In this document: positions 24,045 to 29,829 of the stretch, piece after piece | Numbering within the stretch: the first letter of the stretch is position 1 | How the letters are laid out: every line of letters starts with the position of its first letter | Origin: a virus | Reading direction: 5' to 3' (one strand) | Virus record (IMG/VR): IMGVR_UViG_3300003691_000035 | Coordinates: 1 to 29,829 of that record | DNA: 29,829 nt | Notes under the pieces: model-generated | The model's input: the letters and a program-made list of their open reading frames with translations, nothing else | The model's database searches: none | Told to the model about the DNA's origin: nothing | Program-made: the position numbers and the translations under genes

Positions 24045-24305
24045 ATGGCAACATTCATCACGTCTTTTAACGGCCTAATAGCTACCCGCGCGTCAGTCGC
24101 CGTACCGAATCTCGTCAGGGTCGATGCGTACCGCCAAGCCGGCGCCGTACTGCTCCGGGCGTCGTCCGGGCACAACCTGGCTAGCCTCCCAGGCCGGGCG
24201 GTTATCACAAACGCGGAGTTCGCCGACCTGCAGGCCGCCGACCCATACGACGGGGTGGCAACCGCAGCCAAGGCGCTAGCGCTGGTCGGGTGGACCGCCT
24301 GCTAG
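24045..24305 (+). CDS. Unknown protein at the end of the early block (86 aa)
   Basis: ATG 24045 follows a CAGGGCGAAACACC leader from the copy 2 promoter. The protein begins MATFITSFNGLIATRASVAV, continues RVDAYRQAGAVLLRASSGHN, and ends ALALVGWTAC. No family recognised. Its last 30 bases overlap the 3' end of the opposing TetR-like gene, so the two transcripts converge and could be mutually antisense. Confidence 0.65.
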   Translation: MATFITSFNGLIATRASVAVPNLVRVDAYRQAGAVLLRASSGHNLASLPGRAVITNAEFADLQAADPYDGVATAAKALALVGWTAC

Positions 24306-24620
24306 CCGAACGACCCACGCGGCGACCTGCTGCATCACCGTGGCGTCGACGCGGCCGTTCAGGTCCGCGTCGGCCGCGACCACCCCCTGCGCGATAACCG
24401 GCACGCACCGAACACGCACCGCGTGCCGTAGCACCGCGCGCCGCATGTTTGGGATGGTGCCGAAACAATACGACACCGCCGCCGGGCTGACGCCGGCTGC
24501 AGCCGCCACGCCGGCGCGGGTCAACTCCCGATAGCTGCTCCCGTCCGTCTGCGCTAGCTGCAGCGCGACGTCCAGCAGCTGTATCCGGCGCCGCGCCGGG
24601 TCTAACCGTGCTGCCCTCAT
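24276..24620 (-). CDS. TetR-like helix-turn-helix regulator (114 aa)
   Basis: The N-terminal 60 residues are a TetR-type DNA-binding domain: RRIQLLDVALQLAQTDGSSY, ELTRAGVAAAAGVSPAAVSY and CFGTIPNMRRAVLRHAV, with the HTH in the middle piece. The C-terminal 45 residues are too short for the usual ligand-binding and dimerisation domain (full TetR proteins are about 200 residues). It is last in the minus-strand operon and overlaps the nuclease stop by ATGA. A role as the regulator of its own divergent promoter region at 27238-27281 is a reasonable inference. It could instead bind the GTTAC operators. Confidence 0.72.
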   Translation of the reverse strand: MRAARLDPARRRIQLLDVALQLAQTDGSSYRELTRAGVAAAAGVSPAAVSYCFGTIPNMRRAVLRHAVRVRCVPVIAQGVVAADADLNGRVDATVMQQVAAWVVRLAGGPPDQR

Positions 24621-25102
24621 AGTTCCAACCCTCCTGTGCTGAATGTTGCGAACCCGCCGGCGTTACGCACCAGCGCCAAGAACGCCGCCTGTGCGGCCTC
24701 GCGTCCGTTGCCAGTGTACGACCACCCGGGCCGCTTCGTCTCTACCGCCCCGAACTGCGCGATCGTCGTGCCGACGTCCTGCGGCCGGATCTGCCGCGGT
24801 ATGGCCAGGATCAGGTCGGACGACTTAACCACGCGGTTCAGCCGTTCGGAGTCGTTCGCCAGCCCGTACCGCACCGGCCGCTGCCGTTCGCCGCAGTCAG
24901 GACAGGTCGCGGGCGTCGCCCCGACGTTATTACGCCACGCCAGCGCACCAGAACGCGCCGCCCTCATGCGGTCCTGCTGCTGCGCCCATGCCTCCGACTG
25001 TCCGCCACTGTCCGCCACGTCCGGCCAGGGTATCGCGCCGATCATTGCGTTCAGGTCTGCGGCCGCCGCCGGGTGCTGTGCTGCCCACTCGTTGTACGTC
25101 AT
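24617..25102 (-). CDS. VRR-NUC-type PD-(D/E)XK nuclease (161 aa)
   Basis: The C-terminal 100 residues match VRR-NUC domains of phages: WRNNVGA, RYGLANDSERLNRVVKSSDL with Asp96, then FGAVETKRPGW with Glu121 and Lys123 as the E-x-K catalytic pair, and REAAQAAFLALVRNAGGFAT. A CPDC knuckle (Cys67, Cys70) may bind zinc with a further ligand. These enzymes are structure-specific nucleases acting on flaps or junctions. Its gene overlaps the helicase gene, a pairing common in phages and suggesting joint action on branched DNA. Confidence 0.85.
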   Translation of the reverse strand: MTYNEWAAQHPAAAADLNAMIGAIPWPDVADSGGQSEAWAQQQDRMRAARSGALAWRNNVGATPATCPDCGERQRPVRYGLANDSERLNRVVKSSDLILAIPRQIRPQDVGTTIAQFGAVETKRPGWSYTGNGREAAQAAFLALVRNAGGFATFSTGGLEL

Positions 25103-26811
25103 GCCGTCATGTCCTCTGAGAACCGTTCCGTTATGCGCTGGATCAGCGCGTCAGTGTCGCGGGCGGGCAGTGTGAACGCCGTCCCGATATCTATGCCGAA
25201 CCGGTGGTAAAACCGTCGGTGCTTCTCGCTCAGTGTCCGGCCGTCTGGCTGCATACCCGCCCACCAGGCGACGAGCTCCCGCAGGACCTCGCGGCGGTGC
25301 TTCGCGGCCCGGTGTCGTTTCATATCCGCGCCCCGACCGATCGCCGGTATTCCGCGCCGCAGCTGGTCGGACCCGTACGCGTCGTCGTCCATGCCCGCGC
25401 GATCGATAGCCGCGAACAGCGCCGCCATGCCCTCGACGTCCAGCTCCATCAGGTCGCCGTCGACCTGATCGGGTGCTCTGCGCTCTGGTATCGCCGGGAC
25501 GTGCCCGCAGTACGGACAGGCGGCAAAGAACCGTTCGTACGGCTGCGTGCAGGCGTCGCAGACGCGCTGCGGTATCGTATCGGCCGCGCTGTCTCGGGTG
25601 CCTTTGTCCTTGCCGTCCAGCGACCAGCGGCGCGGCCAGTTCGGCATGCCGTGGCGCTCCCAGTTTCGTACCGGGTCGATGATGATCGCCTCCGGTTTCG
25701 GGCCGGCCGCTATCGCCGCGCGCCTCCCGTCTACGGTCGACAGGTCGAACCCGCCGGCGTATATCACGCGCAACGCCCGACCGACCATCTGCAGGTACTT
25801 CGCCAGCGACTCGGTTGGCCGCGCCAGTAACACCGCCTCGACGCCCGGCACGTCGAACCCCTCGTCGAACAGGTCGACGTTGACCAGGACGTCCAGGCCG
25901 CCGGTCTGGAACGCGTCCAGATCCCGGTCTCGCTCGCGTCCGTCCGTTTCACCGGACAGCGCCACGGCGGCGACACCGTCCGCGGTGAACGCGTCGGCTA
26001 TTTCGTGCGCGGTGGCGACGTCGGTAGCGAACACGATCGCCTTTTTGCCGTCCGCGAACCGGCGGTAGTGCCTGACCACGTCGCCGACCAGGTGCGACTC
26101 GACCACCCGGGCGCGCAGTGCTTTCGCGTTGAGCTCCCCGGACGCCGTGATCGCCACGCCGGACACGTCCAGGTCGGTCATCGGTGCGCGGTACGTGAAC
26201 GGCGACAGGTATCCGCCCTCGATCAGTTCTTGCGTGCTCGGCCCCTCGACCATCACGTCGGCGAACCCGTCCGCCTCGCGCCCGAGCCCCTTGCCGTCGG
26301 CCCGGTCGGGCGTGGCAGTAACGAACAGTTGAACGCCCCGATCGAGCGCCTCGACAGCCCGCGCCCACAGCCCCGACTCTACGTAGTGGTGCCCCTCGTC
26401 GAATACAGCCAGCGTCACCTGGCCGAGCCACCGCTGCAGTTCGTCGTTGCGCCCGCTGGCTGCGCTGGTGATCGTCTGCACCGACGCGACGCCGGCCAGG
26501 GCGTGCGGGTCGACGTACGACCGGTCGAACTCTTTAAGGTGCTTGCGCCTGATCCGCGTCACCACCGCAGGCGGCGCGATAACGCGGTGCTTAACACCGA
26601 GCCGCGCGAGCGTCTGGCTGATCTGCCCGATGATCTCTTTACGGTGGACCACCGCCGCGCAGGCGCCGACGTGCCGCTGCATGATTGCCGCAAACGACAC
26701 GGTTTTCCCGCCACCGGTCGCGCAGACACCCAGCACCGACGGCGCCGTCTGCCACGCGTCCCGGATACCCCGAACGAACTCGGCCTGATAGTCGCGGAGC
26801 CGTATCGTCAC
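25099..26811 (-). CDS. SF2 DEAD/DEAH-box helicase (570 aa)
   Basis: Helicase motifs appear in order: a Q-type start RLRDYQAEFVRGIRDAW, Walker A ATGGGKT (31-37), Walker B FDEGHH (Asp138 to His142), motif III TATPDR (165-170), then IVFATDVATAHEIADAF, VNVDLFDEGFDVPGVEA and QMVGRALR for motif VI. A zinc knuckle CDACTQPYERFFAACPYCG follows. The C-terminal 150 residues (LRELVAWWAGMQPDGRTLSE) are a helical extension. It is an ATP-dependent DNA translocase resembling phage and RecQ/XPB-like repair helicases. GTG 26811 overlaps the upstream stop. Confidence 0.9.
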   Translation of the reverse strand: MTIRLRDYQAEFVRGIRDAWQTAPSVLGVCATGGGKTVSFAAIMQRHVGACAAVVHRKEIIGQISQTLARLGVKHRVIAPPAVVTRIRRKHLKEFDRSYVDPHALAGVASVQTITSAASGRNDELQRWLGQVTLAVFDEGHHYVESGLWARAVEALDRGVQLFVTATPDRADGKGLGREADGFADVMVEGPSTQELIEGGYLSPFTYRAPMTDLDVSGVAITASGELNAKALRARVVESHLVGDVVRHYRRFADGKKAIVFATDVATAHEIADAFTADGVAAVALSGETDGRERDRDLDAFQTGGLDVLVNVDLFDEGFDVPGVEAVLLARPTESLAKYLQMVGRALRVIYAGGFDLSTVDGRRAAIAAGPKPEAIIIDPVRNWERHGMPNWPRRWSLDGKDKGTRDSAADTIPQRVCDACTQPYERFFAACPYCGHVPAIPERRAPDQVDGDLMELDVEGMAALFAAIDRAGMDDDAYGSDQLRRGIPAIGRGADMKRHRAAKHRREVLRELVAWWAGMQPDGRTLSEKHRRFYHRFGIDIGTAFTLPARDTDALIQRITERFSEDMTA

Positions 26812-26996
26812 TCGGTCGGCGTCCGGTACGCTGACCAGTTACGCCCTGACCCGTCCGGGTAGCGCGGGACGTTTAACAGTCTGCCTAGCTCCTCGCCGTC
26901 CCCCGACGCCATGTAATCAGCCACGGCCCGGCGGATCTCGCGCCGCAGCTTGGCGACGGCCACCCGCTCGGCCCGGTCTAGGGGGTCGCCGCCCAT
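26808..26996 (-). CDS. Small unknown protein (62 aa)
   Basis: ATG 26996 shares a base with the stop of the zinc-ribbon gene, and the end overlaps the helicase start by GTGA. The sequence is charged and helical: LDRAERVAVAKLRREIRRAV, then ADYMASGDGEELGRLLNVPR and a Tyr/Trp tail. It may assist the helicase, but this is only from position. Confidence 0.6.
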   Translation of the reverse strand: MGGDPLDRAERVAVAKLRREIRRAVADYMASGDGEELGRLLNVPRYPDGSGRNWSAYRTPTE

Positions 26997-27211
26997 CAGA
27001 CCTGCACCCCGTCGGCGTGTTTGGTAGCCAGCGGCCGGTAGTCCGCGCCGGCAGTCTCTCCGCAGCTGCCGCAGACCATGGCAGGGACGACGTTCTGGTG
27101 GAAATGCCCGTCGTCGTACCCGCCCTGCTGGGTCTCCTCGTCGCAGTGCTCGCAGGCGAATATCGCCCGGAAGTCTCTGCGGTGCTGTGAAAGGATCTTT
27201 TTAATACGCAC
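26996..27211 (-). CDS. Small zinc-ribbon protein (71 aa)
   Basis: The start is set at GTG 27211 because AGGAG lies eight bases ahead; starts further upstream would overlap the promoter. Two cysteine pairs, CEHC (20-23) and CGSC (47-50), bracket a GGYDDGHFHQNVVPAMV segment, with DYRPLATKHADG at the end. This type is widespread in phages infecting proteobacteria, with no known function. It is the first gene of the minus-strand operon and so is the first product of the leftward promoter at 27253-27281. Confidence 0.82.
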   Translation of the reverse strand: MRIKKILSQHRRDFRAIFACEHCDEETQQGGYDDGHFHQNVVPAMVCGSCGETAGADYRPLATKHADGVQV

Positions 27212-27237
27212 TCCGTTCTCTCCTGAAAAAATAGTAG

Positions 27238-27266
27238 TTGACATGCCGGTCAATAGTGCCGATAGT
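27238..27266 (+). promoter_or_regulatory. Rightward promoter of the 27305 operon
   Basis: TTGACA (27238-27243), 17 bases, GATAGT (27261-27266). Transcription would start near 27273, giving a leader of about 32 bases with the GAGG site for ATG 27305. Confidence 0.65.
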
Positions 27267-27281
27267 TGACGGCGTTGTCAA
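27253..27281 (-). promoter_or_regulatory. Leftward promoter of the 27211 operon
   Basis: On the minus strand TTGACA (27281-27276), 17 bases, CACTAT (27258-27253). Transcription would start near 27246, about 35 bases ahead of GTG 27211. It shares its DNA with the rightward promoter, so one polymerase excludes the other. Confidence 0.55.
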
Positions 27282-27304
27282 TTAACAAACCGAGGAAAAA
27301 CGCA

Positions 27305-28054
27305 ATGAGCAAAACGATTAGCTTAACGATCCCGTACGAACCCGACGCGCTGTCCATGGCCAGCACCATGCTACTCGATATGGCGCGGCTACTGGAGCAG
27401 ACAGGCGGTGCGCCCGCCAGCAGCCCGGTAGTGCTCGCACTCGCAGAGCAGTACGACGCAGAGCAGCTCCACGCCTCCGACGAGACGCAGAACCAGGCAG
27501 CGGACGACGGCGTGAACCCTGTCCCGGCAGAAATGGCCGGCACGGTTGGTCTGGACGGGCAGGATCGCGAAGACCCCGGGCTGCCCGTAGCCGGCCCGGA
27601 CACCCGAGTCGACGGCAAGGGCGTACTGTTCGACGGCAAGTACTGCGCCGCAGCGGCCGACCCGTTCTACGCGGCAGGTAAGTACGCCGGACAGTGGAAG
27701 AAAAAACGCGGCGTTTATCAGTCTACCTACGACGCGTGGCACGCTGCAGAAGTGCAGGCGCTGTACGAGACGGCCACCGCCGGAGCGGTAGACGGGGCTC
27801 TCGGCATACCCGCTGGCGACACCGCCGCCGCGTTCGCACCAGACGACGCGCAGCCTGAGCAGGCCAAACCGCAGACAGTCGGCGAGTTCATGGGCTGGGT
27901 AGCCGAACGTCAGGCCGCTGAAACGCTGACGCAGGCCGATATCGACGGCGCATACGCTGCGTGCCAGTTGACCGTCAACATGCTGTTCCCGCCGACTAAC
28001 GAGTCTACCGTCGCGGGCCATATCTCGCGGCTACTCGCTGCGCTGGGCGCCTAA
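27305..28054 (+). CDS. Phage protein with WKKKRGV motif, unknown role (249 aa)
   Basis: The start is ATG 27305 after GAGGAAAAACGCA; a longer frame would begin inside operator B. The N-terminal 60 residues (KTISLTIPYEPDALSMASTM) form a beta-alpha unit, followed by an acidic Gln/Ala linker. The middle module DTRVDGKGVLFDGKYCAAAA and YAGQWKKKRGVYQSTYDAWH matches a motif common in phage proteins next to DUF2800 genes (typical form GLPWD.RIHS...W..KRGV). The C terminus has TQADIDGAYAACQLTVNMLF. Its stop overlaps the nuclease ATG (TAATG). Function is not known; a link to recombination is inferred from its neighbours. Confidence 0.72.
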   Translation: MSKTISLTIPYEPDALSMASTMLLDMARLLEQTGGAPASSPVVLALAEQYDAEQLHASDETQNQAADDGVNPVPAEMAGTVGLDGQDREDPGLPVAGPDTRVDGKGVLFDGKYCAAAADPFYAAGKYAGQWKKKRGVYQSTYDAWHAAEVQALYETATAGAVDGALGIPAGDTAAAFAPDDAQPEQAKPQTVGEFMGWVAERQAAETLTQADIDGAYAACQLTVNMLFPPTNESTVAGHISRLLAALGA

Positions 28055-29211
28055 TGTCACAGCACGCACGGTTTGCTCCTAGCGGCGCGCCGGTCTGGGG
28101 CCACTGCTCCGGGTCGGTGCAAGCGCAGGCCGCGTTCCCTGACACCGAGACGCCCGAAAGCCGCGAGGGCACCGCAGCGCACTGGGTTATCTCCGAGGTG
28201 CTGTCGAGCGGCACCGTCATGGCGTACGCCGCCGACCTGCTCGGGCAGACCGCGCCGAACGGCGTGGTTATCGATGAAAAGATGGTCGAAGGCGCGCAGG
28301 TAATGATCGACGATGTGCTGGGTGTACTCGCCGCGTGTGCCGGGGCGGAACTGCTGATCGAGCACCGCGTCGCTATGCCGGCGATTCACCCGGAGAACTG
28401 GGGCACCCTGGACGCCGCGCTGTACGTGCCGTCCGCCGGTGCGCTGTTTCTATGGGACTATAAACACGGCCACCGCGAGAACAGCGCAGCGGGCAACCTG
28501 CAGCTGATCGACTACGTGGCCGGGCTGGTGCAGCAGTACCGGATCGACGGCGTGACTGAGCAGAACACCCGCGTCGTGCTGCGGATTGTGCAGCCGTTTT
28601 GTTACACGTCGACCGGCCCGGTTAGCGAGTGGGTCGCCCCGTTAACGGATCTGCGCGGGTACTGGAACCGGCTGCACGCTCAGGCCGCCGAAGCCGATAC
28701 CGGCGGCACGCTGACGACGGGGCTCTGGTGCCGCGACTGTAAGGCGGTCGGCGTCTGCGCTGCAGAACGCCAGGCCAGCCACAACCTGATCGCCGTGGCG
28801 GGGTCACCGTACGAAATGGACACCATGTCGGGCGCCGATCTGGCAACCGAACGACGCATACTGTCCGACGGTATCGCCGTCGCAGGTAAGCGGCTGGAAG
28901 CTATCGGGGATCAACTGCACCACCGCGCCACGTCCGGAGGCGATGCAGGCGGGCTGGTGCTGGAAACGACCAGCGGCCGGCGTGAGTGGGCCGTCCCCCC
29001 GGCGCAGGCCGTCGCGCTGGCGTCCCAGTTCGGCGTCGATGCTAGCAAACCGGGCGTGCTGACGCCGACCCAGACGCTAGCCCGCGCCCCGGCTGCGGTC
29101 CGGCCGATGCTCGATCAGGTAATGAAAAACGCAACCCGGCGACCTGCCGGAAAAACGAAACTAGTAGAAGCGGCCGACAGCACCGTCGCCCGCGCATTTA
29201 AGAGGAAGTAA
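28054..29211 (+). CDS. DUF2800 RecB-like PD-(D/E)XK nuclease (385 aa)
   Basis: The opening HARFAPSGAPVWGHCSGSVQ and SREGTAAHWVISEVLSSG are the hallmarks of DUF2800, a family of the RecB/Cas4-type nucleases. Catalytic residues are visible as Asp120 in GTLDAALYVP and Asp135 and Lys137 in LWDYKHGH. A Cys pair in GLWCRDCKAVGVCAAER may belong to an iron-sulfur or zinc site. It would act as an exonuclease in phage recombination or replication, working with the adjacent ssDNA-binding protein. It follows the WKKKRGV gene without a gap. Confidence 0.88.
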   Translation: MSQHARFAPSGAPVWGHCSGSVQAQAAFPDTETPESREGTAAHWVISEVLSSGTVMAYAADLLGQTAPNGVVIDEKMVEGAQVMIDDVLGVLAACAGAELLIEHRVAMPAIHPENWGTLDAALYVPSAGALFLWDYKHGHRENSAAGNLQLIDYVAGLVQQYRIDGVTEQNTRVVLRIVQPFCYTSTGPVSEWVAPLTDLRGYWNRLHAQAAEADTGGTLTTGLWCRDCKAVGVCAAERQASHNLIAVAGSPYEMDTMSGADLATERRILSDGIAVAGKRLEAIGDQLHHRATSGGDAGGLVLETTSGRREWAVPPAQAVALASQFGVDASKPGVLTPTQTLARAPAAVRPMLDQVMKNATRRPAGKTKLVEAADSTVARAFKRK

Positions 29212-29216
29212 ACACC

Positions 29217-29829
29217 ATGCCACGAATAGACGAAAACAAGGTTAAATTGTGCGGCGGAATCGTCGTGTGGGACGAGGTCAGCACCCCGACCGTTGCGACG
29301 CAGGGAAAACGCGCTGGCGATACTCACTGGAAATTTAAGCTGGCATTCGAGCCTAGCAACCCCGACCTGGTCCTGCACAACAACCTCGCGCTAAAGGCGC
29401 TAGCGGAGTCGCCCGATTTTCGCGGCGTGCTGCCTCCGGGCGGCCGTATGCCACAGAGCGTCATCGGTCCTAACGAATTCGGCGGCCAGTTCACCGGTTG
29501 GGTGGCTGTCAGCTTCGGCACGTACTACGCGCCGGACATATACGACGAGGCGGGGACACTGATCGACCCGATGCAGCGCGCCGGGCTTGTTTACGTCGGG
29601 CAGCGGGTCGACGTGCTGTGTCACTGCTACCCATACAACACGGCGAGCAAGGGCATCGGCTCCGGCCTGGACGCCTTCGGGGTGAGTCTCTCCGCTCCTG
29701 GCCAGCGACTAAACCTCGGCAGCGGCGACACCGCGGGCGCGTTCGCACCGACCGGCGCACCGCCACCGCAGGCAGCTCCCGCGCCCGGCCAGCAGTACGC
29801 ACCGCCACCGCAGGCAGCTCCCGCGCCCG
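29217..29829 (+). CDS. Probable ssDNA-binding protein, DUF2815-like (partial, runs off right edge)
   Basis: AAGAGGAAG precedes ATG 29217 and the frame is open for 204 codons to the edge. It begins PRIDENKVKLCGGIVVWDEV, then THWKFKLAFEPSNPDLVLHN and a beta-rich core with FTGWVAVSFGTYYAPDIYDE and LVYVGQRVDVLCHCYPYNTA, followed by a Pro/Ala/Gln-rich tail. Position right after DUF2800 is typical for DUF2815, which acts as a phage ssDNA-binding protein. The flexible tail resembles those of SSB proteins, which recruit partners. The true end is unseen. Confidence 0.72.
   Translation, partial: MPRIDENKVKLCGGIVVWDEVSTPTVATQGKRAGDTHWKFKLAFEPSNPDLVLHNNLALKALAESPDFRGVLPPGGRMPQSVIGPNEFGGQFTGWVAVSFGTYYAPDIYDEAGTLIDPMQRAGLVYVGQRVDVLCHCYPYNTASKGIGSGLDAFGVSLSAPGQRLNLGSGDTAGAFAPTGAPPPQAAPAPGQQYAPPPQAAPAP
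29757..29829 (+). repeat. 42-bp tandem repeat in the tail of the ssDNA-binding gene, cut by the edge
   Basis: The 31 bases from 29757 recur exactly from 29799 with a 42-bp period, ending at the last base of the window. Each unit encodes 14 residues, APPPQAAPAPGQQY. Further copies may follow. Confidence 0.9.

Follow-up and report, generated by a model that had tools for sequence, protein, structure and literature searches.

In Tn10 tetA/tetR, two TetR operators are located between overlapping divergent promoters, and an inducer-binding TetR controls a resistance pump. In phage lambda the early repressor Cro turns down early genes by acting on promoter-embedded operators of the tripartite operator OR. 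For the bidirectional promoters studied in E. coli the start sites lie 10–23 bp apart, and at those with an overlap similar to the one described below no competition between polymerases was observed at basal activity (PMC12825309). The consensus site of the Vibrio regulator LuxR, TATTGATAAATTTATCAATAA, contains TTGAT-N6-ATCAA (PMC2680268).

The window analyzed here is a stretch of viral DNA of 29,829 nucleotides (IMG/VR record IMGVR_UViG_3300003691_000035); the underlying viral record is probably incomplete. Two operons diverge from an intergenic gap at exactly 27212–27304, between a GTG start at 27211 (minus strand) and an ATG at 27305 (plus strand). The features of the gap and of both operons are:

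24276–24620, minus strand: 114-aa protein with a TetR-family DNA-binding domain (phrog_8723), last gene of the leftward operon, proposed repressor (from profile, predicted structure and conservation in the module)
24617–25102, minus strand: endonuclease-like protein (phrog_93)
25099–26811, minus strand: DEAD/ResIII-type helicase (phrog_16)
26996–27211, minus strand: 71-aa Cys-rich protein (phrog_14808), first gene of the leftward operon, differing among relatives
27238–27243, plus strand: rightward -35 box TTGACA, doubling as the left half-site of operator 1 (sequence, promoter scan)
27238–27253, no strand: putative operator 1, TTGACATGCCGGTCAA, TTGAC-N6-GTCAA (exact dyad match)
27253–27258, minus strand: leftward -10 box CACTAT, weak, 17-bp spacer, N7 after operator 2 (sequence)
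27261–27266, plus strand: rightward -10 box GATAGT, 17-bp spacer, N7 after operator 1 (sequence, promoter scan)
27266–27281, no strand: putative operator 2, TTGACGGCGTTGTCAA, TTGAC-N6-GTCAA, 28 bp from operator 1, start to start (exact dyad match)
27276–27281, minus strand: leftward -35 box TTGACA, doubling as the outer half-site of operator 2 (sequence)
27305–28054, plus strand: 249-aa protein of unknown function, first gene of the rightward operon, C-terminal half conserved
28054–29211, plus strand: DUF2800 / phage exonuclease (phrog_69)
29217–29828, plus strand: start of the next gene, the record ending inside it (no Pfam match)

The leftward operon also encodes a 62-aa protein between the 71-aa protein and the helicase. 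Judged from position alone (PY6_23), the product of 29217–29828 is probably ssDNA-binding. Pseudoalteromonas phage PY6 is annotated with the same gene order: helicase, nuclease and TetR-family regulator follow each other on one side, and the opposite arm is annotated hypothetical, hypothetical, ssDNA-binding, DNA polymerase. Based on the gene content of the window and this annotation, both arms consist of replication genes. The 71-aa protein has relatives of 50–62% identity in T4-like Yersinia phages and in Streptococcus phages, and in other relatives unrelated small genes occupy the slot after the leftward promoter. At two loci (L053, L062) the nuclease/TetR-like part is located on the strand opposite to the helicase, so this half-module can invert.

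Read directly from the sequence, the facing -35 boxes of the rightward and leftward promoters enclose 44 bp (27238–27281), and each dyad combines the -35 box of one promoter with the predicted start of the opposite one. As in bidirectional sigma-70 promoters, -35 and -10 elements in both orientations lie within one polymerase footprint, the leftward -10 being weak. The rightward promoter has 10 of 12 matches and was the only one of the pair called by the promoter scan. The leftward promoter described in the earlier note can be read as TTGACA-N17-CACTAT, but its -10 box matches TATAAT at only 3 of 6 positions and the scan did not call it. Since the -35 hexamer itself is TTGACA, a promoter without any operator would already provide one half of each dyad. 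Exact TTGAC-N6-GTCAA occurs only twice in the 29.8-kb record, both times within 27212–27304 (reversed-pattern control: 0); a third exact copy is absent from the record, including the region before the window’s own tetR-like gene. When up to two mismatches were allowed, the record contained 18 matches compared to 7.5 ± 2.5 in shuffled sequences, and none of 100 shuffles reached 18.

The arrangement proposed here shares with Tn10 tetA/tetR two TetR-family operators between overlapping divergent promoters, a regulator in one arm, repression of both directions and autoregulation. It differs in that the TetR-like protein is truncated and lacks the ligand domain, the genes under control form phage replication operons, and a -35 box makes up one half of each operator. 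The layout is not without precedent, two TetR operators between overlapping divergent promoters being the arrangement of Tn10. With lambda Cro and OR it would share an early phage repressor at promoter-embedded operators, but the protein family is different, a lysogeny counterpart was not seen and the operator is not tripartite; a lytic arm facing a lysogeny arm with a repressor/Cro pair, as in a lambda-type switch, is not present. E. coli bidirectional promoters such as acrA/acrR, which adjoins a TetR-family regulator gene, are likewise pseudo-symmetric overlapping divergent promoters (PMC12825309), whereas in the window about 27 bp separate the predicted starts, and the -35 box of each promoter falls on the start of the other. 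LuxR, HapR and SmcR of Vibrio have the folds closest to that of the phage protein, and the LuxR half-sites have the same N6 spacing as the dyad; however, these are full-length host quorum-sensing regulators and dual activators/repressors. We consider it likely that both early operons are shut off by the truncated TetR-family repressor through binding to the two dyads, the element being a composite bidirectional promoter-operator.

Helicase relatives from IMG/VR and from named phages were used to compare the intergenic regions. In nearly all closer helicase relatives the operons diverge likewise and the TetR-like gene is retained. TTGAC-N31..36-GTCAA, corresponding to the distance of facing -35 boxes, was found in 55 of 65 homologous divergent helicase/exonuclease intergenic regions; the shuffle control gave a mean of 0.17 and a maximum of 2, the reversed and complemented controls 0. 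Our listed set of 47 distinct elements (56 loci) was selected partly by TTGAC/GTCAA, so the near-invariance of these boxes inside the set is not independent evidence, while the 55/65 count is. For the -10 hexamers of the two directions the 47 distinct elements gave 4.39 and 4.42, compared to 2.97 ± 0.14 in shuffled spacers (about 10 sd). This enrichment together with the 55/65 count indicates that the overlapping face-to-face promoter pair is conserved, by sequence in phages of Vibrio, Shewanella, Alteromonas, Oceanospirillum, Aeromonas, Acinetobacter, Klebsiella and uncultured hosts. The overlapping divergent promoters with an operator pair, as described for the window in the earlier note, are thus present in the sequence and recur in relatives. 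At L031 and L033 one or both TTGAC boxes are missing from the divergent region; L031 has TTTAC and an inverted repeat TTGGTAA ... TTACCAA, perhaps an altered operator.

In a scan that made no use of homology information, IMG/VR was searched for two exact dyads 9–16 bases apart, which yielded 14 loci. Five of them (L141, L144–L147) carry helicase, nuclease and TetR-like protein with a helicase identity of only 33–41%, and a sixth has a DUF2800 relative. L145 contains one exact dyad pair at the divergent region and another directly before the tetR-like gene; L141 has pairs at both places as well, one site of the divergent pair carrying one mismatch. Recurrence of the 28-bp operator spacing in related phages, proposed earlier as a check, was confirmed for 8 of the 10 close pairs inspected (at most one mismatch in all): the window, MSW-3, L141 (twice), L145 (twice), L146 and L027. 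The promoters are arranged face to face in the window, L141, L145, L146 and L027, and back to back in MSW-3 and L144. A search of IMG/VR for a single dyad with a strong -10 pattern resembled chance background, with the TetR module in none of the 80 matches listed. Paired dyads without the helicase/TetR module occur at L138 and L149 and at L137 and L140, some in longer repeat runs, and possibly represent another regulator or a replication origin. The record behind L146 carries, besides the paired operators, four identical perfect palindromes, TTGACTCATGAGTCAA, across its 48-kb genome.

Exact copies of the dyad were also counted in whole records. We found 8 copies in Klebsiella phage Geezett, 5 in Edwardsiella phage MSW-3, 6 and 7 in another Klebsiella phage and an Escherichia phage, and 5, 12, 5, 6 and 3 in uncultured module phages, compared to a random expectation of about 0.05 per genome. 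Judging by these sequences, Jedunavirus, Yokohamavirus and uncultured relatives carry the full dyad as an operator in multiple copies. Several copies at promoters throughout the genome are thus seen in relatives, whereas the 29.8 kb of the window contain only the pair. In Geezett and MSW-3 most intergenic dyads are followed after 7 bases by a -10 hexamer, which makes the promoter spacer 17 bp long. Many of these dyads are found some 60 bp ahead of an early-type gene or operon start. The same N7 geometry between dyad and -10 box is found at both sites of the window. Furthermore, putative operators precede the tetR-like genes themselves, by sequence position, in Geezett (dyad at 44399), MSW-3 (62 bp before ORF-58), Scuro (one dyad), L141 and L145. 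The annotated GTG start of the TetR-like gene of Geezett is probably too far upstream.

The inner half-sites are less well preserved. A GTCAA-like inner half-site at gap N6 with at least 4 of 5 matches was present in 18 of 94 arms compared to 1.6 expected (maximum 7 in 300 shuffles). A second, smaller peak was observed at gap N5, and all other gaps were far less enriched than N6. The expectation that both TTGAC-N6-GTCAA sites are conserved in related genomes therefore holds in part: repeated or paired dyads are found in many relatives, but many homologues have lost the inner half. Retention in every relative is ruled out by the 18 of 94 arms, and VP16, R9Y1, PY6 and PD0307 possess the TetR-like gene with the inner half-site lost. 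At sequence level, conservation of the promoters exceeds that of the operator. In relatives with another inner sequence, either the regulator would read another site or the divergent promoter would lie outside its control. Arm-to-arm similarity is higher within loci than between loci (permutation 0.0002), a value which ignores relatedness and which we give little weight.

Such losses could mean that the promoters alone matter. The pair would then be kept because both operons are needed, and the dyads of the window would be an accident of facing TTGACA boxes and chance inner halves. The outer TTGAC boxes and both -10 boxes indeed persist where inner half-sites do not, and since an indel in overlapping promoters harms both, the geometry would be locked without any regulator. 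This explanation does not account for the two exact dyads in the window, compared to about 0 in shuffles, nor for the enrichment of specifically gap N6 among the elements. In addition, relatives carry the dyad repeatedly as an operator at promoters, and distant module phages identified without homology have exact 28-bp pairs as well. We therefore regard it as unlikely that promoter function is the only constraint.

In PY6 a different palindrome is present at other promoters, and none in the divergent element. Five near-identical copies of TAGCGC-N4-GCGCTA (also GTAGCGC) are located near small genes at about 7108, 8015, 12383, 19993 and 28189 (L115/L105) within the -35/-10 spacer. This motif differs from the TTGAC dyad and is possibly the site of a repressor of PY6’s own. 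A de novo search for repeated dyads gave nothing convincing in VP16C, R9Y1, CKB-S1, AeroV_348 and SFCi1; among the other named phages the TTGAC motif was recovered only in Scuro.

The TetR-like gene was characterized further. A profile of 15 phage homologues matches TetR-family proteins of the PDB (best E 1.1e-11). Pfam TetR_N was above cut-off in three homologues, the window protein alone giving no Pfam match. An AlphaFold model predicted from the window and IMG/VR sequence rows reached a pLDDT of 84 and a pTM of 0.75. Its best Foldseek matches are LuxR, SmcR and HapR with a probability near 1, the E of only about 0.01 probably being due to the short domain. Profile and model point to an N-terminal TetR HTH domain in the product of 24276–24620. 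The C-terminal ligand/dimerisation domain of about 130 aa is absent, the proteins comprising about 94–117 aa and thus representing a short form. In two phages, SppYZU01 (L089:7380–7880) and Scuro (L091:8317–8817), the TetR-like protein has 166 aa, the extra HTH-like part being N-terminal to the TetR domain.

The earlier note had suggested the last leftward gene as the regulator. With its TetR-family domain and its conservation in the module it is the best candidate, and its role as the binder of the dyads is suggested by sequence. Alternatively, another factor might read the dyads, either a different phage protein, e.g. the product of one of the small first leftward genes, or a host regulator. 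Proteins annotated as HTH are encoded directly downstream in two cases (VP16C orf44C, NVP1009O_43); however, the proteins in this slot change from relative to relative and are unrelated to each other. The TetR-like gene, by contrast, is conserved, and in several phages a dyad stands before it. We consider a different binder quite improbable.

For the TetR-family repressor acting on both dyads, the following sequence of events can be proposed. Two sigma-70-type promoters overlap face to face, and every -35 box forms half of a TTGAC-N6-GTCAA operator. Host RNA polymerase would transcribe both replication operons from the 44-bp element early in infection, and the leftward one would supply the TetR-family protein from its last gene. 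TetR-like dimers might then occupy both operators and block both promoters, in a repressor position given by the operator covering the -35 box and the upstream spacer. The candidate regulator closes one of the two operons and in relatives has its own operator. The simplest circuit would be early expression followed by autoregulated joint repression. The outcome would be negative autoregulation and a coordinated, Cro-like shut-off of early genes.

Originally the element had been interpreted as a possible, mutually exclusive genetic switch. In a bistable switch of this kind, polymerase bound for one direction would shut out the opposite one, and the repressor would fix one of the two states. Physically, polymerases of opposite direction are likely to exclude each other; the predicted polymerase footprints overlap fully, and strong one-way activation can repress the other direction at E. 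coli bidirectional promoters (PMC12825309). At basal activity, however, the E. coli promoters tested in vitro showed negligible competition (PMC12825309), and both arms of the window encode replication functions that are needed together. In relatives the operators are also located at other, unpaired early promoters. The proteins examined include neither an integrase nor a CI-like repressor, and the search of isolate genomes turned up no close relative as a prophage. Because the antagonistic arms that it needs are absent, the switch is unsupported and in our view very improbable; coordinated shut-off fits the data better. A pure chance origin of the dyads and promoters is ruled out by the facing boxes in 55 of 65 regions, the -10 enrichment and the repeated dyads in relatives.

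The phages carrying the module look virulent. On a broader scale, and with somewhat less confidence than for the window itself, we favor the existence of a widespread early-gene regulon of virulent tailed phages. It would comprise a TetR-family repressor of about 100 aa acting on replication genes and further early genes, -35 boxes that form one operator half, pairs of operators spaced by 28 bp where bidirectional promoters stand face to face, and an operator sequence that diverges between phages. Open literature on Jedunavirus/TetR/promoter and on phage-encoded TetR early repressors contained nothing relevant, and the early-gene shut-off circuit is apparently undescribed so far. The analysis bears on the turning down of early transcription in non-model virulent phages, the Klebsiella phages of the genus Jedunavirus included. 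Its outcome is a specific, easily tested candidate regulator together with an operator code, in phages that are already cultivated. The promoter and operator map is of use for annotation, and the elements represent a natural set of bidirectional promoters for studying polymerase competition and the co-evolution of repressor and site.
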